A DNA stretch of 64,000 nucleotides from Paramecium tetraurelia (taxonomy: Eukaryota > Ciliophora > Oligohymenophorea > Peniculida > Parameciidae). Positions 8,558 to 63,527 of this stretch are shown piece after piece (positions within the stretch are counted from its first letter, which is position 1; each line of letters opens with the position of its first letter). A program made the translations under genes and the position numbers. A model generated the notes under the pieces. The model saw only the letters and a program-made list of their open reading frames with translations. It searched no databases and was not told the DNA's origin. The stretch covers positions 294,757-358,756 of the forward strand of contig NW_001799629.1 in the NCBI RefSeq assembly GCF_000165425.1, written 5' to 3'.

Positions 8558-9649
8558 TCAATATTTCAATTTGGAATAGCCTAACATTATCTTCTCCTCG
8601 TGTACTTCTTCAAATCTCTATTTGACCATCTCTTCGAGTTGATTCACCAACTGAATCTCGCTTCTTCTCGCTTGAGTGCCATAATTGTACTCAGTCTAAA
8701 AGGTGGAGCACAGAGCTTAAGCTTATTCCAACAATTATTGATTTCTTTATTATTTGGATGAGGCTGAATTCGATACTGCCGATTGAACTCCAATGCAAGC
8801 AGAAAACTTGTCTAATTTCACTTGTTGTCTCTCGTGTTATCCTTGTAATCTCGATAACACTTTGTTGACCTTCTCCTTTTGTAGATTGAACAAACCCACA
8901 CTTTGAGCATTTGATTCTGTAAATTGATCATATGCCTCTTGGATGGCAGATCTCAGATCTTTGAGTAAATGCTCCACTTATTGGAGGGAACTCAAATCAA
9001 TTGATTATCCTTGGGTTGCCAATTGAATGAATGCATTAAAAATGGGAGCATAAATTGGAGTTTTGTTAATGTCAAATGATGTTTATAACATTCTTTGACT
9101 CACTTTACTCAACTCAGAGAAACTTCTATAACCAAATGAAATTCCTTCCAAGATTGTCAACGCTTCGTCTATGGCATGCAATGAATCCTCATATTGTCTA
9201 CTTCTCCTCTTAAAATAGGCTGATTCTGATTCAGCTGTTGTAAGGATGGTGTTCAGATGTTACTAGAAGGTATTTTCTTATTATTGATTGACCTACTATT
9301 ATTCAATTGTTCTCTATTTTGAATATTGACAAGTGCTTAATTAAGCATTAGAGTCTCTCAGAGTGCTTTTGGCGTTTTGAATTTCAGCATTTCTAAATTC
9401 ATATTCAGCCTAACATTCTCTCAATTCCACATTAAAGATTTGGTCGTGATTGACTTATTCCTCATTGACAGAATCTCTAAACAAAGTGAGTACATTCAAA
9501 ACAGCATCCAATGGAGAATGAGATTTAATCTTCATTTCCACCTCAGCCATCACAGCTGTGATTGATCTCTACTTAGTGTAATTGAGTCTATGATGATGAT
9601 TAGCACCAGACACTATAACTAAGATCAACAAGAGAGCAAAGATCTTCAT
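8558..9649 (-). CDS. Trichocyst matrix protein (TMP/tmp family)
   Basis: Intronless frame of 364 codons, ATG 9649-9647 to TGA 8560-8558. The protein begins with a secretory signal (MKIFALLLILVIVSG), then a short pro-region, then long Gln/Glu-rich coiled coil. Family landmarks shared with the second copy at 43,750-44,844 include MAEVE, SPLDAVLNVL, EQVNHDQIFNVEL, YEDSLHAIDEAL and the C-terminal EYNYGTQARRSEIQLVNQLE. In Paramecium these proteins are processed from precursors and crystallise in the core of the trichocyst, a regulated secretory granule. The Cys residues and heptad pattern fit. Confidence in family is high; the exact paralogue group is not assigned. Confidence 0.93.
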
Positions 9650-23575: not shown

Positions 23576-25768
23576 TCATTAATACTTTTTGAGTATTTAA
23601 ATTAACTATGATTCTTTGATTGGTTTAACTAAAAAGTCTGCCATTCCAGAATTTATACACTTTTCATATTCTTATTGATCCGTATAACCACTACAACCAA
23701 TTATTATCTAATTTGGAAAGCTTTTTAATATAATTTTGGTAGTTTATTAACCATTCATTTAAGGCATTTCAATATCCATGAAAACAATTTTATAGCCTGA
23801 ACAAGTGCTGCAACATTTTTTATTCTATATTTTTTTAATGGATTCGCTCCCAGACAAGGCTTAATCAACATCAAATTCACTTGTAAACAAGTACTTTTTA
23901 TTTTTATACAATTCCTATAATATTCCTTTAAATGCAAAAGTATTAAAACAATCATCATCAACAATCAAATAATGAAGACAAATTTATTGAGTAGATAAAT
24001 CCTCCTTCGTGTTTGAAGGTATTTTTTAAAAACTATTAATTTCATCAACTTCCTAAGGCTACAATGAAATTTCAGGTATCCTAAAACTAGAGACTTTCTT
24101 TTTGAAAAAGTCATCGATCAATAAATCAAAATAGAAATGGCAATAATGATTATTCTTTTCGTTTTTTGAATCTATATTCAGTCCAGCAGATCCAATATTT
24201 TAAACAATCTAATTACTTATAACCAAACCCAATCCAACTCCTTGTTAATTGAGTTTTCTACTTTCTTCAGAATTAACTTTGGAGAATGCCTTAAACAAAT
24301 TCAATTGATCTTCTTCTGATATCCCAATTCCTTCGTCTCTTACTCCAATTCTCAAATTCTTCGATTTTACCATCTCAAGCATTATTTTAATTTTACCACT
24401 TTATGTAAATTTAAAGGCATTACTCAGTAGATTAACGATTATTTGTTTAAGTCTGTTCCTATCCTAAAATATAAATTATGGAAGGGAAGAACTGTAATTG
24501 GTAGACAATTGAACCTATCTCAACTTAGCTTTTAATTCGAACATTTTTTAGCATTCTTCAATTAAAGTTGATAAATTAAATGGTACTTTCTCCACTTTGA
24601 ATTTACCGTTTTTAATTTAAGCCAAATCAAGCAGATCATTGGATAAATTTAAAATATAGTTTGAGTTATCTAAGGCTATTTGTAATTGTTCATTTATCTA
24701 AGGGTTGTTCTTAATTTGGGTTTATTTGAGTACTTATTCTAGCATTTAGATAATACAATTCAAAGGAGAACGGTATTCATGACTGACAAATGAAAGCATT
24801 TTTGACTTTTGTTTATCATATTCTTTTAGGTATCTAATTTTTTGTCTATGAGTTACATCTCTACAGATAATGATGATATTTTAATTTTTACTTAAAGTCA
24901 ATGTTAGTTCAAGCAGTTAATTATTATCTGCATTAATATAGGTTTGAGATACTTGTATTTATTGATTTGTAAAAACAGTTTATCTTAAATTTAATTGTGT
25001 TTAAACAACTATACAATCTTAATTTTTTTATTTTAATAACATGTCAATAATATATTTTATTTTGTACTTCTGACTCTTTTCTTAACCCTAAGACACATCT
25101 AAACTAAGATTTCTCTATTGTAAATAAGTTTAATCTTTGATTTCAGTCGTTTATTTGAAAAGATACAAAGAGGGTTACCTTTAAATCTGTGAAACAAATA
25201 ATAAGTCATCGTTTGCTTCTCCGTTAACTAATTAAAATGTATTCAAACTATCAATAAATTGAAGCACTTCTTGTTCAGACTCTCTATTGAATAGTGTTTT
25301 TGTGGCCTGGTTTAAATATTTGATAATATATGGAAAATTGGAAGAATTAGAGTCTGGAACTAGTAAAATTACTCCTTCTTTTAATAATTCTAAACATTGA
25401 ATAGTGGAATCAGAAATACCATTATCGGCCAAAGCTGATGTATCTCGTATACCTGCAGAATTGGGGTTTTGATCTAAATCAAATTATGAGACACCCCTCT
25501 TTGAATTCAACATTTCTTATTTATTAGTATTAGTAATTTCAGTTAAAATTGATGTAATTTGAGACGGCTTTTATTTCATCAATGAAGAGTTGAAGTAGAT
25601 TGATATCATTAAAGATATCAATAATTGTGGCTATTCTCTATCAAATTCAATTCTCACATATGAGTAAACCAGCAAAAATATTGAGATTATTGCTTATAAT
25701 GCCAATAATTGAGATTACAAACGCAACTTAAACTCTAAATACAGGTCTTTTATTAAGATTTAAGCCAT
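23576..25768 (-). CDS. Membrane hybrid histidine kinase with receiver domain
   Basis: ATG 25768-25766, TGA 23578-23576. Two membrane helices near the start (LLALQAIISIFLLVYSYVRI and LLISLMISIYF), then a PAS-like region (STIQCLELLKEGVILLV), a second sensor region, the H-box MLSFVSHEYRSPLN with the phospho-accepting His (near 24780), an ATPase domain with the G1 region GIGISEEDQ and the G2 box GVGLGLVIS, and a C-terminal receiver ending GMADFLVKPI with its conserved Lys. So sensing, autophosphorylation and phosphotransfer to Asp are in one chain. The receiver half uses short exons whose joins I did not all trace. Hybrid kinases are known in ciliates and other protists but absent from animals. 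Confidence 0.85.
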
Positions 25769-26890
25769 TATGATTTATGAAAAGGGTATCCTACCAAAAT
25801 TGTGCACATTCATTATTATTAAACATATCATATCTAATTGTATGCATATAATAGTTCCTTGTAACATGAACTTGTTAAAAACATTTTATAGCAATATTAA
25901 TGCCAAAGTAATTGAAGTTATAATTATTAATTGTATCAAATTGAGTAGGCATGAGCTTTCCAATTAGTGATATATTGAGTATGAGAGAATCATGCTTTGT
26001 AACAGGTTGACCATAAAGCATTTTTGATTTAACATAATTTAATATAAATACACTGTTTAAACTAAATTTCTATAATTTTCTTAATTTTTACAACCTTAAC
26101 TACAGCTAACTTTTCTCATGTTCATTCCTTTCAAGTACTCTCTCAGACTCATCTATGAATTTATTTATATTTTTAGTCACCCATAAAATAAATTTCGTAC
26201 ATATTATCTAGCATTTATTTATAATATACTTTAACTATTAATCATTAATATGAGTTGTAGAATGCAAAGTTATGATAAAAAACTTGAATACCTAGTTCGT
26301 TTCTAAAGGCAGTTCAATAGCAATTTATGGTTATTTGTTTCTAAAACTCTCATTATGTGCTTTTATTTATATTAATTCACAGTTTGAAAATTGTACTATA
26401 AACTATGGAAGAATTCAGTTGATCAAGTTATATATACAACAACATTCACTCAAACGATATTAAAGAGGGTAATAAAATGAATTCAATATTTTTACTCTGT
26501 ATAATCATAATAATAATATATCGATGAATAAATATGCATAAGATTAGAATTCTTACATCTCAAAACTGTATGATATTACTTATTAATAATAATATATCTT
26601 AGTTAAGCCCTTCTCAAATAAATATATATTGAGAACTATGAAAAATTATTAGTGTAAATGATTTTTAATCTCATATATAATTTAGTAATCTTAATAGTTA
26701 ACAATAAAAATATTCTAAAAATAATAAAATAATTAGTTTTCATGATATAATTAATTGAATTTGATATTTTGAATGGTAATAATAAGTCGATGGATGCTTC
26801 GATAAATTCAATCAATGTTAAGAATAAAACATCAAGCACTACTAATAATCATTATATATTATGCTAATTATCAATAAATATGATTGAACT
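25769..26890. other. Intergenic, A/T-rich
   Basis: Both strands carry frequent TGA in all frames. No gene or RNA is recognised. Confidence 0.5.
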
Positions 26891-40649: not shown

Positions 40650-41765
40650 TCAATCACACCATTAGATTCTTTTACCATTAATCCATTAACCCTTTCTCTT
40701 GCCTTACTAACAATTAACGTACTCTCCGATTCCATGTTATTTACCCATTTCCCATTATCCTGAATATTATCGAGAATCAGCTAACTAAATTACTAATAGG
40801 ATTACGCCATGTTATAGTTCCAAACCCATGTTTCTTATCATTCTTGTATTCTCCTTCATAAACCGTACCATTGGACCATGTCATCTTGCCCTTTCCATCC
40901 ATTTAATCGTTTAACCATTCCCCCTCATATTTTCTGCCATCATGCCAATAATAAATACTAGAACATATGGAGTTGAAAAATACCCTTATCCATTAAATTA
41001 ATTATTCTTAAACCAACCTTCATAAAGAGAACCATCTGGAAATTTATAAACGCCTTAACCATCACGTTTACCTAATTTAAATTAACCTGTATAACTAGAT
41101 TTATCAGAGAACAACTCAAAACCATATCCATTTTATAAATTCTCAAACCAATTTCCTTTGTACATGGCACCATCACCATGATAATACTCACCATATCCAT
41201 GATGTTGATCATCTGCCCATTCTCCTATATAATAATCTCCATCAGCATAAATCATTCTACCCTTTCCATTGGCCAATCCTCTAGAGAACTATCCTTCATA
41301 AATTGATCCATTTTTCATGATTTAAACTCCTTTTTATTTAATAACTGAATTTTACCTTTACTCCATTTTTGACCTTCTAACCATCCTCCTTTGTATAAAC
41401 TTCCATTATTTAATTCATAAACTCCATAAAAATAAGCATCTGTCTCTTCTACTTCATATGGTCCCAATCTATCTAATAGTTCCTGCATTAAAATCATCTC
41501 GTACTTTGACTTTGAACGAGGATGTCTAGAACAATTAAGATGTCAAACTGGCCTCTTTAATGTCTGGTCGATGGATTTCTAACAGTAAGGAATCTTCCGT
41601 TTATCTGGTTTTCGTTTATGATGAATTCTTCTCCAAATCCCCTTGTATCATAGGTTCATCTGTGATTGCTGCTCCTTCTCTAATTGTCTCTATATTGCTA
41701 GTAAAATTGAGTGGAGGTGCCTCACTCAGCACTGTTATTTGTTCAGAACATACACATTGTCCCAT
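40650..41765 (-). CDS. MORN-repeat protein with N-terminal acylation motif
   Basis: ATG 41765-41763, TGA 40652-40650. Introns of 22-28 nt (near 41,480, 41,335, 40,960 and 40,790) restore a continuous series of MORN repeats such as [113 protein letters not shown] and [19 protein letters not shown]: at least eight. The start MGQCVC is a good N-myristoylation plus palmitoylation signal, so membrane attachment is likely. MORN proteins organise membranes and the cytoskeleton in ciliates and other alveolates. About 330 residues. Confidence 0.9.
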
Positions 41766-43749: not shown

Positions 43750-44844
43750 TCAAGCTTGGTTGGCAAGTCTTTGGTTTCTTTCGTGGTTTTCATCTTCAAC
43801 TTAGTTGAATCTGGCTTCAACCATCTCTTCTAATTCGGCAACCAATTAGAGTTCGTTTCTTCTGGCTTAGGTGGCATAGTTGTATTCGTTGGCGAAGGTT
43901 GAGCATAAAGCTTAGGCTTAATCCCAAAGTTATTGGTTTCTTTAGAGTTTTCCTGAGGCGGTTTATGCAATAGCTGATTGAGTTCCGATTTATTGGTTCA
44001 ATGAATCAAGTTTATTTTAGAGTCTTTCGTTTTAGGCTTCAAGTCTAGCGATGGTTTATCCAATTCTATCCTTTTAGTCATTGAAGGCAGCAACTGAAAC
44101 AGCGTTTGATTCAGTGAAGTCGTTGTAAGCTTCTTGGATGTTTCCTCTCAAGGTTTCCAAAAGTTAAGCAACTCTTTCAAGAGCTGATTCATCGAGTTAA
44201 CCTTCTTGGGCAGCCAATTAAGAAAAGGCATAGAAGACTGGGGCAAACTTGGCGGTTTCCTTGATGTTGAAGGCAGTTTAGAGCATGCTCTTTGAAACTC
44301 TGCTGATTTCAGCGAATGATCCTGATCCACTGTAGATGGCGGCTAAGATGTCTGAGGCTTCATCAATAGCATGGAGAGCGTCTTCATAATCTCTTCCTCT
44401 TCTCTTGAAGTATCCGGCTTCTGTTTCTGCAGCACTCAAAACACTGTTCAAGTGTTCTTAAGCTGAGAAGTATTATTATTAATTGACTTCTTATTAGTTG
44501 GTGGCTCTGATCTTTGAGGTTTAAGCAACATTCAAGGCAGCAGTTGAATCTCTGAGGACATTGCTGGCATCAGTGACTTCAGCTCTTCTGAAAGCATTTT
44601 CAGAATCACATTCTGTGACTTAGACATTGTAAATTTCGTCGTGATTAACTTATTCTGTGTTAACAGCATCTCTGAAGTCTCTCAATACGTTCAAAATAGC
44701 ATCGAGTGGTGATTTGTTCTTTAATTTGGCTTCAACTTCAGCCATAACTGCTGTCATTGATCTCTTCTTGGAGTAATCCAAGTTGAATTTTGGTGTAGCA
44801 CTGGCAACGGCTAAAATAACCAATAAGCACAAGGCAAGTCTCAT
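43750..44844 (-). CDS. Trichocyst matrix protein (second copy)
   Basis: Intronless, 364 residues from ATG 44844-44842 to TGA 43752-43750. I chose this ATG because it opens a proper signal peptide (MRLALCLLVILAVASA); the frame stays open upstream, but that part is A/T-rich leader. Landmarks are shared with the copy at 8,558-9,649: RSMTAVMAEVEAKLK, SPLDAILNVLRDF, EQVNHDEIYNVQ, YEDALHAIDEAS, and the end EYNYATQARRNELQLVAELE. Codon use is more G/C-rich than the neighbours, as expected for a highly expressed secretory protein. Core protein of the trichocyst. Confidence 0.94.
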
Positions 44845-45396
44845 TTTAATAATAATATTTTTTTTTTTTTTCTCCAAAGCATAAAACGTGCACAACAAAA
44901 ACGGATTTTTTAATAAAAACAACTAAATATATACAATTATCATTTTTATTCTCCATTCAGACACTCGACCAACTCTCCTTAGTCCAAGCTCCAATCTCAA
45001 ATTGCTACTCAATTCGAGAAGGTTACACACTCTTATTTCTTGTTCTTTAATTCATATTAGGCAATTCACTGTTCCCACTTTATTTAAGCATTATAGAACA
45101 ATTTCTAATCTTCATAAATGTTATCTGATTTTTATTCGGTCTCAAATACTTAATCCCACATTTATTGCCACAATCAATTATCATTCTTTTCAATCTATAA
45201 TCATAGCTTTAGTCTGTTTTTTTTACTATATCTTACCTTTTCAATTTATTCAATTACCTATTTTGGCAGAAAAAGGAACTGATATCAAAATCATCAGAAA
45301 ATAGATTAAGAATTGGATTTTGTTTAAACATTTAAATATGGTAAAATATTTATTAATCATATTATTTAATAATATTATATAACACTAATAACAAAT
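44845..45396. other. Intergenic leader and spacer
   Basis: Contains the promoter and leader of the trichocyst gene. A plus-strand open frame (from about 45,002) has poor protein composition and I do not accept it. On the minus strand near 44,955-44,985 a piece resembles the 5' arm and A box of a tRNA-Ser/Leu, but no matching 3' half follows. Confidence 0.5.
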
Positions 45397-60590: not shown

Positions 60591-60881
60591 CTTGTAAGAA
60601 ATAATAAATTTCTAGTAGTAGAAAAGATTCAGATTTGAAATAGAATTAAGTTTATATTTATCTCTTTAGTTTAAGCAGTATTTCTTTCATAAATTTTGAA
60701 AAAAATATAAGATAATTGCTATGTTATTTTATAAATCGTTATAATATTGATCTTTTGGTAGAAACTTCTTAAAGAACAATATTATAGCTTAGCTAAAGTT
60801 GTTTTAATCTAAATTGTGAATATACTAAAAAGAATTTAATTTTTTTAAAAGAGGCAATTTCTATCAAGTATTTAAATAGTA
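60591..60881. other. Intergenic
   Basis: A/T-rich spacer before the B-box gene; nothing recognised. Confidence 0.5.
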
Positions 60882-63527
60882 TGTAATGCACCTATCATCC
60901 TTAAAATTCAATAACAGTAATCTGTATAGCACCTCATATTTGTTAAAGGAAGCTTTGCGCAGAATGCCAATATGATCATAATGTGGATCTTAAAAAGATA
61001 ATCCCCATCAATATATTTAGACAATTAATGATTAAGAAATTCTAAGACTGTAAAATAGGTGGGACACTTGAATTTTAAGATATGAAAAATAGCTCGAAAT
61101 AAAGGCTGTCCAATTCTGAAAATGAATTTAAATCATTATTGGGCCATTTAACAGAATAAATAAAATAAACTTAGGAGATGTTAGAGAAATAAGAAGAATC
61201 ATACCTGGATCTCATATATTAAAATGAGAACTTTGTAGAATCATCTATAACTGTTTTACAATAGCTAGTGTAAATATTAAATGGTAGCATTTTGGATGAA
61301 TGGAATGATAAAAAAAAAAGCTATGTATCAAAAATGAAATTGGCACTTGATTAGTTTGATGTTTAAGTGTAGATTTGTTTTGAAAAACTTAAAGAAGAAA
61401 TGAAAATTATATAATAGATAATTTAGTAATTATTTAATTATTTTCTTATAGGATGGATAACGATGAAAAATTCAAATGGTAAGAAGGTATTTAAGAATAC
61501 AAATGTCGGCAATGGGATTATTATGGTCAGAAATTTATTAACACAAAATTTCTAATTAAATTTACCAAAGAAAAAGAAATTTAATATATCAGAGACGGTT
61601 CTATCCTCAGAAGGTATTAATTAAATATTAATTAATATTAAAAGCCAAAACATCAAAAATATTTATGTGAAACCTGAAGTTTTATCAAATTTAGAGTAAA
61701 TTCAATACCTTAGGTGGTTTGGAAAATATAACTACAATAATTAAAATGTTGGTAAGTGGATAGCTACATGGAGAGGAGAAGGTTTAAGGGATGTTGGAGG
61801 ATAGTACTCTGATGATGGGAAAAAAAAAGGTTTATGGAAAGAACTAATACCAGATTATTGGAAGTATATTAGGATATAATTAATTAATAGCAAAACTTAT
61901 TCATAGGGGTCTGGAGTATATATGGATGGCAAAAGAAGATAAACCTGGAAATATATTTACAAAGATTAAGAACTGTATAATGAGATAAAATTATGATAGT
62001 TGTGGGGGAGAATACAATGAGAATGGAGAGAAAAATGGAAATTGGAAAGAGTTTTGGTAAGGATTTTGGGAGAAATCATTTGTGATCAATAAGGGAGAAT
62101 ATAGAAATGGCAAAAAAATTGGTAAATGGGAAATGTTGTATAAGCCGGAGGATGATAATTAATATAAAAAAATGTAAGGAAAAATATATTGAAATTAATT
62201 AGCGGAGGCGGCTAATATGATTTAGAAGGTTCTGAGATTAAGACTGGAGAGTGGAATGAACTAAGAGAGGGATTTTGGGATAAATCCTAAGTAATCTATA
62301 GTGGGGTATACGATAATGGTAAAAAAGTTGGCAAATGGGAAATTTTTTATAAATAGTAAAAGATGTAAATATAATAATAATATCATAATTTAGAGGTGGT
62401 GGTGAATATGATAAAGGAAATGGAATTTAGATTGGGGAGTGGATAGAATTAAGCGAAGGATTTTGGGATAGATCTTAAGTCACTTATTCTGGGAATTATT
62501 AAAATGGCAAAAAGGCTGGTAGATGGAATATTTAGAATTAAACTAAATAGATGTACCAATTTGATTATTATTTAGTGGTGGTGGATCATATCATGAAGCA
62601 GGATCTGGGATTAAGGTTGGATAGTGGACTGAAATAAGAGAGGGATTTTGGGATAGATCATAAGTAACTGATAAAGGTGAATATAAAGAAGGCAAAAAAA
62701 TTGGTTAATGGGATACTTACTATGAAAATAAATAAATGTATTGCATTAATTTATATTTACAATTTATAGTGCTGGTGGAAAATATGATGAATAAGGGAAT
62801 CAACATAAGGTTGGATAATGGGTTGATTTGAGTGATGGATTTTATGAAGATTAATAGGTAACCTATTGTGGAGAATATAAAAACAATAAAAAGGTTGGTA
62901 AATGGGAGACTTCATATCAAAATAAAAAAATGTAAGCAAACATAAAAGATTTTAGCGGCGGGGGATAATATGATTTAGAAGGAGAAGGATTTAAGATTGG
63001 ATAATGGATTGATTTGAATGACGCATTTTAGTATTACTCATAAGTATCCTATAACGGGGAATATTAAAATGGAAAAAAAACTGGTAGATGGGATATTAAT
63101 TATTAAGGAACAAAGATGTAAGTATTATATTCGAGAAATAATATTGTAGAGGTGGAGGATCTTATGATGAAAAAGGGGATGGAACATAAGTAGGGTAGTG
63201 GATTGAGCTAGACGATGGATTCTGGGAGAAATCATAAATAACCTATGTTGGAATGTATAAAAACGGTAGAAAAATTAGCAAATGGGAAATTTTACATAAG
63301 GGCACTAAAATGTAAATATGATTTAAAAAAATATTAGTGGTGGAGGATATTACGATGGGGATAATGGCCTTAAGTTAGGTAAATGGACTGAGTTGAAGGA
63401 TGGGTTTTATTACATGAGTTAAATCGCTTATATAGGTGAATATGAATCTGGCAAAAAATTTGGTACTTGGGTGGAAATGGATTTAACTAGGAACTAGAAA
63501 TTAAACGAATACAAATTTTATCGATGA
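60882..63527 (+). CDS. B-box protein with one-exon-per-repeat MORN-like array
   Basis: ATG 60882, TGA 63525-63527, about 790 residues. It starts with a B-box type zinc finger (MQCTYHP...ICIAPHICQRKLCAECQYDH), then coiled coil (to about residue 190), a linker with KWQEGIQEYKCRQWDYYG, then repeats of about 54 residues such as GGGEYDKGNGIQIGEWIELS followed by EGFWDRSQ, YSGNYQNGKKAGRWN. Repeat exons: 62000-62173, 62203-62364, 62394-62552, 62576-62737, 62770-62931, 62956-63117, 63150-63311 and the last 63338-63527. Introns between them (61975-61999, 62174-62202, 62365-62393, 62553-62575, 62738-62769, 62932-62955, 63118-63149, 63312-63337) all split an ATN codon after its second base. Each repeat carries a Y-x-G-x-x-x-x-G-K-x-x-G-x-W element related to MORN. 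Confidence 0.9.
61975..63337 (+). repeat. Tandem array of intron-exon units
   Basis: Eight introns of 23-32 nt alternate with internal exons of 174, 162, 159, 162, 162, 162 and 162 nt. All exons are multiples of three, and after the first (which follows a CTG-type end) all introns begin in the sequence ATGTA and end in AG followed by a GGN-GGN-GGN-type codon run. The array is at DNA level a repeated intron+exon unit of about 190 bp, with introns diverged and exons held. Confidence 0.9.

Follow-up and report, generated by a model that had tools for sequence, protein, structure and literature searches.

How does a gene come to encode a tandem protein repeat in which each repeat is one exon and the introns lie at one position of the repeat? 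The question is raised by a gene in the final 64 kb of contig C210 (358,756 bases) of the Paramecium tetraurelia assembly (69.07 Mb, 231 contigs); this whole stretch of 64,000 nucleotides is called the window here. The gene (60881..63527, forward strand) is read in code 6 (TAA and TAG = Gln) from an ATG at 60881 to a TGA at 63525-63527, with a predicted product of 780 residues; of the bounds first proposed, 60882..63527, the end stood and the start is replaced by the ATG at 60881. We consider it probable that its array grew by way of modules of intron plus exon, at first encoding a single hairpin each, and that the intron in the middle of the present repeat was later lost in this gene.

Introns of the repeat array

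Introns were located with a spliced profile scan using a 54-column profile of the repeat, in which an intron had equal cost at every column and phase, without positional preference. The maximum intron size in the scan was 40 nt and predicted introns were 21-40 nt; all introns described here, in the window gene and in its paralogues, are predictions from DNA sequence. In the window gene the scan called nine introns, all of them phase 2: eight fall at column 53 and one at column 25. When 82 introns were put at random into four coding sequences, 78 were placed exactly, with a single call at the two family sites. Zero introns were called in four coding sequences from which introns had been removed; this control is weak, as the caller itself had named the introns taken out. 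The array intron pattern of the window gene is not due to chance.

The most upstream repeat (VGGQYSDDG...) begins with half A (VGGQYSDDGKKKGLWKELIPDYW, 61793..61863), and its N-terminal junction has no intron, which corrects the original description. The only middle intron called in the window gene, between the two hairpins of the repeat, falls in this first repeat (61864..61890; 27 nt, phase 2, column 25); its length is a multiple of three and it is TGA-free. From there on, predicted junction introns, all phase 2, alternate with repeat exons: intron 1 (61975..61999, 25 nt) and an exon of 174 nt (62000..62173); intron 2 (62174..62202, 29 nt) and an exon of 162 nt (62203..62364); intron 3 (62365..62393, 29 nt) and an exon of 159 nt (62394..62552); intron 4 (62553..62575, 23 nt) and an exon of 162 nt (62576..62737); intron 5 (62738..62769, 32 nt) and an exon of 162 nt (62770..62931); intron 6 (62932..62955, 24 nt) and an exon of 162 nt (62956..63117); intron 7 (63118..63149, 32 nt) and an exon of 162 nt (63150..63311); and intron 8 (63312..63337, 26 nt), followed by the last exon (63338..63527), which holds the final repeat, a C-terminal tail and the TGA stop.

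The seven internal exon lengths of the original prediction (174, 162, 159, 162, 162, 162 and 162 nt) were thus exactly reproduced, as were its eight introns of 23-32 nt (61975 to 63337), 8/8 of which the scan placed at one repeat position, column 53, in phase 2. The split codon is the last of the repeat and is cut after its second base (CT/T once; AT/A, AT/C or AT/T seven times). For seven of the eight junction introns the length is not a multiple of three, and their removal is therefore required for the conserved frame. For the 24-nt intron (62932-62955), which is a multiple of three and TGA-free and would add eight residues in frame if retained, the call comes from repeat spacing alone.

The N-terminal part of the gene

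Read from the translation, the gene begins with a Cys/His-rich, B-box-like pattern (C3, H6, C15, C26, C29, H33; 60881..60982, forward strand). A B-box and a putative coiled coil had been proposed to precede the array; for the B-box, what was found is the Cys/His pattern, and the Pfam B-box was absent among matches with E up to 10. Pfam gave no family above its cut-off on the window protein, with no B-box, LRR or MORN match. N-termini resembling this Cys/His-rich one occur in 5 of 20 paralogue loci (L057, L059, L061, L062 and L063; loci carry L numbers and contigs C numbers).

Two upstream introns were predicted on the forward strand. The frame requires removal of the first (61426..61451, 26 nt); at this site L062 changes frame, and L057, L059, L061 and L063 align across in one frame. 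The second (61614..61644, 31 nt, with an AAG end) is the least certain: the frame could be restored by either of two GT-AG candidates, and this one was preferred because it keeps KPEVLSNLEQIQYL. A frame change near residue 235 is present in L058, L060, L072 and L076 and in none of L059, L062 and L063. Judging from this anatomy, the product might be an extended β-hairpin scaffold, possibly oligomerised via its N-terminal part, that binds proteins or membranes, a role we put forward only tentatively.

Elsewhere in the window, two mutually related ORFs on the reverse strand (8558-9649 and 43750-44943), with signal-like N-termini and long helix-like regions, resemble trichocyst matrix proteins and may encode such proteins. 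A long reverse-strand ORF (23576-26152) bears a resemblance to a hybrid histidine kinase with a receiver domain.

The paralogue family

A protein search of the gene's own genome returned at least 149 matches on 29 contigs, the window's included (of 175 candidates, 150 were scored), and one further contig came from a DNA search, bringing the contigs with family matches to at least 30. From this family, the window gene and 20 paralogue loci made up the set for the spliced scan. It yielded 276 predicted introns (158 junction, 74 middle, 44 elsewhere), of which 247 were in phase 2, 16 in phase 1 and 13 in phase 0. Two exact column-and-phase sites took up 213 of the 276, where a uniform distribution would put ~1.7 at each site. 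Junction and middle introns together numbered 232; 159 had lengths not divisible by 3, so that the frame needs their removal, and 73 were multiples of three. GTA..TAG borders were found in 165 of the 232.

Of the 44 off-site introns, 23 were in L057 and L061, where scan paths bridge genes or cross weak repeats; these two loci, with paths bridging several genes, were excluded from the unit counts and the unit tree. Among the 129 full internal units outside them, 114 had a junction intron and 57 a middle intron. The gene table comprised 20 family rows; it leaves out L066, whose path starts inside the array, and L059's second path.

Exon sizes in the nine loci examined formed two groups, hairpin exons of ~69-105 nt and two-hairpin exons of ~156-192 nt. 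Exon length had been said to be held while introns drifted. As a family rule this is unsupported: single-exon repeats of the paralogues span ~156-192 nt, and the near-constancy is peculiar to the window gene.

A probable one-hairpin module

In L074, L075 and L076 a phase-2 intron follows nearly each half repeat. After the first exon, half A is encoded by exons of 69-78 nt and half B by exons of 84-105 nt, in alternation; L074 has one fused exon, of 171 nt, amid its half-repeat exons. The pattern G-x-Y...G-x-W is common to the two halves. Compared by hhalign, their profiles matched with a probability of 89.6% (E 1.9e-6). When 80 sampled B halves were scored on the A profile, 69 did better than every one of the 15 shuffled versions made from them. 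At both sites the intron most often lies 9 codons from the conserved Trp (56 of the 70 middle introns and 50 of the 154 at the junction, without L057 and L061); for half B the second commonest was 15 codons (33 cases), through linker insertions. An AlphaFold2 model of one exon (8 rows, mean pLDDT 58.6), used for its strand pattern only, contained two hairpins (strands 4-8/15-22 and 28-37/40-49), and in this low-confidence model the junction and the middle intron sites both lay between hairpins. A model of two consecutive repeats, with the intron divisible by three read through, had a mean pLDDT of 40.6 and was discarded. Halves A and B look homologous on these comparisons, and the ancestral unit was likely one intron plus one hairpin exon of ~27 residues.

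Because half-repeat introns are found in L074, L075 and L076 and in the first repeat of the window gene, we take the hairpin to be the elementary unit and the 162-nt exon to be two such units fused. The equation of each repeat with one exon seems to be a derived state, judging from these three loci and from the window gene's own first-repeat middle intron. Both exon classes were observed within one gene in L069, a divergent locus in mid-contig on C166, with internal exons of one hairpin (75-84 nt) and of two hairpins (156-165 nt).

The middle intron could have been lost from fused repeats or gained by split ones, and loss is preferred on the apparent half homology and the first-repeat pattern. 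Had it been gained, the 54-residue exon would be the old unit and the second intron would have spread by unit copying or gene conversion. Such a history would suit the prevalence of fused repeats, which are in the majority in 12 of the 20 family rows, with middle introns prevailing in 8, and the gene tree does not polarise the direction of change. It is nonetheless rather unlikely, given that the first repeat carries the middle intron in 15 of 20 rows, the window gene and other fused-type genes included (it was uncalled in L059, L061, L063, L067 and L071), that lone fused units stand within otherwise split arrays (L068, L069), and that the apparently homologous halves agree in intron phase and in their most frequent Trp-to-intron spacing, which a single origin of both sites explains more simply.

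Two trees bear on this history. In the gene tree (20 rows, 77 columns) the middle-intron state changed 6 times (shuffled mean 6.5; 213/500 shuffles as low), and genes with and without middle introns were not separated. In the unit tree (136 units), which is poorly resolved, the middle-intron label was clustered (28 changes, shuffled mean 44.5, 0/500 as low). As the gene tree is unsorted and the unit tree poorly resolved, a single loss is unsupported by the trees, and recurrent loss or homogenisation is equally possible.

Probable joint duplication of exons and introns

Matching introns accompany matching exons in some young paralogue repeats. In L061, units 29 and 31 have exons 95.2% identical and introns identical at 29/29 positions, and units 19 and 31 have exons 89.6% identical with 27/29 intron positions shared. 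Units 6 and 7 of L067 (exon identity 76%) have 37- and 38-nt introns that are alike (z 6.9), and units 18 and 20 of L057 (80%) have an intron z of 6.6. The mean intron z climbs with exon identity, from at most ~0.5 below 60% through 1.2 at 70-75% within a gene and 2.4 at 75-80% to 4.9-7.4 above 80% (four pairs). In self-comparison, L061 showed multi-unit blocks that run across introns, and L057 a tandem pair of genes.

The window gene itself lacks this signature: its introns have no clear similarity inter se (36 pairs, best z 2.4, mean 0.26), and its best exon pair, 73% identical, is without intron similarity. Its own introns being dissimilar, joint duplication in the window gene is argued from their position and from the paralogues. 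The proposal that intron plus exon was the unit of duplication is therefore supported by the young copies of L061, L067 and L057, has no counterpart in clear intron similarity within the window gene, and changes in unit size, to the half repeat. Dating the duplications by exon and intron alignment picks out young copies among the paralogues, and the copies in the window gene are too old to date.

The equal position of the introns could also arise without joint duplication, had they been inserted separately at a favoured sequence in each repeat. The mutual dissimilarity of the window introns would agree with this, as would the flanking motif common to the repeats and two paralogue pairs near 80% exon identity without a clear intron match (L064 units 3 and 5, z 0.3; L057 units 19 and 21, z 2.0). 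Parallel gain is nevertheless very improbable in view of the matching introns in young duplicates of three loci and of the 213 introns that share two exact sites. We thus retain joint duplication of intron and exon.

The tandem array genes of L057 (2601-5245 and 5778-8372) are 70% identical over 2.68 kb, with 15 predicted introns each. L061 is a very long array, with ~40 units along a single scan path that may cover several genes; it occupies most of a contig of 12,046 bases (C106), and it is there that the family's youngest exon-plus-intron copies were found.

Exon skipping and intron retention

It had been proposed that single repeats could be skipped by splicing. The exons are multiples of three and symmetric, and the frame would survive a skip; omitting one repeat of the window gene would demand an intron of ~210-225 nt. 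An RNA-seq study of P. tetraurelia describes exon skipping as never observed, and only very short introns as being recognised, which precludes skipping (Saudemont et al., 2017; PMC5663052). In P. bursaria, the events reported as most often regulated are intron retention and alternative 3' sites (PMC12862383). Functional exon skipping of repeats is unlikely, and the idea that symmetric exons were kept for alternative splicing, with repeats skipped singly to give protein length variants, appears to us extremely doubtful. Because no skipping was seen in that RNA-seq study, exon symmetry is more likely to bear on how repeat number evolves than on isoforms.

Retention could be a real output for two of the nine array introns, 61864-61890 and 62932-62955, both of which are open to read-through without a TGA and would add 9 or 8 residues. 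Being multiples of three without an in-frame TGA, they would be invisible to nonsense-mediated decay when retained. Against such a role, splice variants in P. tetraurelia are mostly attributed to error, and decay-invisible introns are described as being spliced more accurately (PMC5663052); we hold it to be only a faint prospect. In the family, 57 of the 232 two-site introns are multiples of three and TGA-free, and 12,996 of 65,159 P. tetraurelia introns are given as decay-invisible (PMC5663052), the two classes not being identical.

Location near contig ends

In 20 of 30 contigs the family match lay at most 20 kb from a contig end, where 13.4% would be expected (binomial P 2.6e-11), and 14 of 19 stronger loci, picked by us, did so (P 3.5e-9). 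A weak second match on C229 (295882) did not enter this test, nor did additional rows from one contig. The window gene stops 473 bases short of the contig end. The closest cases could come from assembly breaks at repeats. In a strict telomere-repeat search of the 20 near-end contigs, C229 alone showed the repeat. Mixed CCCCAA/CCCAAA (C4A2/C3A3) telomere repeats, which are a mark of Paramecium, were found no more than 250 bases from a contig end in at least 12 of the 32 contigs holding the pattern. The pattern had 96 matches versus 231 for the backward pattern, which is the same repeat in another register and not an independent control.

Code 6, introns of 20-35 nt with GTA..TAG borders and mixed telomere repeats characterise the gene as a macronuclear Paramecium gene. 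The alternative that the short stretches are germline eliminated sequences (IES) was rejected on their GT-AG borders and on the contig-end telomere repeats, which suggest a macronuclear assembly.

Comparison with known systems

Repeat-sized symmetric exons occur in collagens, LRRs, kringles and others. Compared with these, the introns here are far shorter, and exon borders follow hairpins, with visible fusion. The nearest precedent is the Tetrahymena LRR genes, described as arrays of 90-bp phase-2 exons (Xiong et al., 2019; PMC6564038). That report proposes unequal crossing over, possibly with retrotransposition, suggests that arrays of the exactly 90-bp, phase-2 type may have a single origin, and describes thousands of genes, with one possible fused exon only; the youngest array genes are given as enriched near germline chromosome ends and centromeres (PMC6564038). 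Both systems are found in ciliates and combine tandem symmetric exons of about one module, an extreme phase-2 bias and young copies. Phase 2 at repeat-exon borders, as in Tetrahymena, holds for 8/8 window junction introns and 247/276 family introns, and clonal copies of exon plus intron were met in L061, L067 and L057 and are not visible in the window gene. In contrast to the 90-bp Tetrahymena exon, exon length in this family is variable (~69-105 and ~156-192 nt in nine loci), two-hairpin fused exons are common, introns are 21-40 nt, and matches are spread over at least 30 contigs. The repeat differs as well, being G/Y/W-rich and MORN-like with no Pfam LRR match. As to location, the Tetrahymena enrichment is subtelomeric and pericentromeric in the germline genome; the observation made here concerns assembly contig ends, at most 20 kb away from the match in 20 of the 30 contigs.

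The commonest weak Pfam match to single repeats was MORN (PF02493; 3 of 34, best E 0.026), which had no match above cut-off in the window protein or in three paralogue arrays. The likeness to MORN lies in the G-x-Y...G-x-W of both halves; the low-confidence model shows two hairpins. A canonical MORN ORF is present in the window on the reverse strand (40881-41384; PF02493, E 9.3e-26), with repeats that have no internal introns, unlike the split MORN-like array. In NCBIfam all matches were marginal, the best being to the LIC20035 adhesin (E 0.0061; 2 of 34 repeats). A PDB profile search had no significant match (Radial spoke protein 10 ranked first, at E 0.53), and with a larger alignment the best match was an unrelated-looking protein (E 0.21). 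A literature search, with most subscription journals outside its coverage, found no description of a Paramecium MORN-like exon-array family. Relative to the Tetrahymena arrays, this family has a different, MORN-like repeat, belongs to another ciliate genus and shows frequent exon fusion.

Proposed origin and significance of the array

We propose the following history for this macronuclear ciliate gene, whose product would join a Cys/His-rich N-terminus to an array of MORN-like β-hairpins. The array would have grown by tandem duplication of one tiny phase-2 intron together with one exon, the first module being a single hairpin of ~27 residues with its intron 9 codons past the conserved Trp. Hairpins A and B would then have diverged to form the 54-residue pair. 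In the window gene, the intron between A and B may have been precisely lost in all repeats save the first, leaving 162-nt two-hairpin exons, which would have expanded further or been homogenised as units. Since the exons are symmetric, with phase-2 borders on either side, in-register unequal exchange, presumably in the germline, would change repeat number with the frame intact, and the length of the scaffold could evolve in this way.

On a broader view, Paramecium may have independently evolved a Tetrahymena-like exon-array factory built from hairpin modules, with in-frame multiplication near macronuclear chromosome ends, introns lost singly, and exon quanta of one or two hairpins; we would give this even chances. 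The series of split hairpin exons, fused exons and young exact copies allows intron loss and module duplication to be followed within one family with very short introns. The family tests whether phase-2 arrays are a general ciliate source of repeat proteins near chromosome ends. If the proposal is true, ciliates would have arrived more than once at new repeat proteins by way of phase-2 exon arrays, which would then not be a singularity of Tetrahymena.
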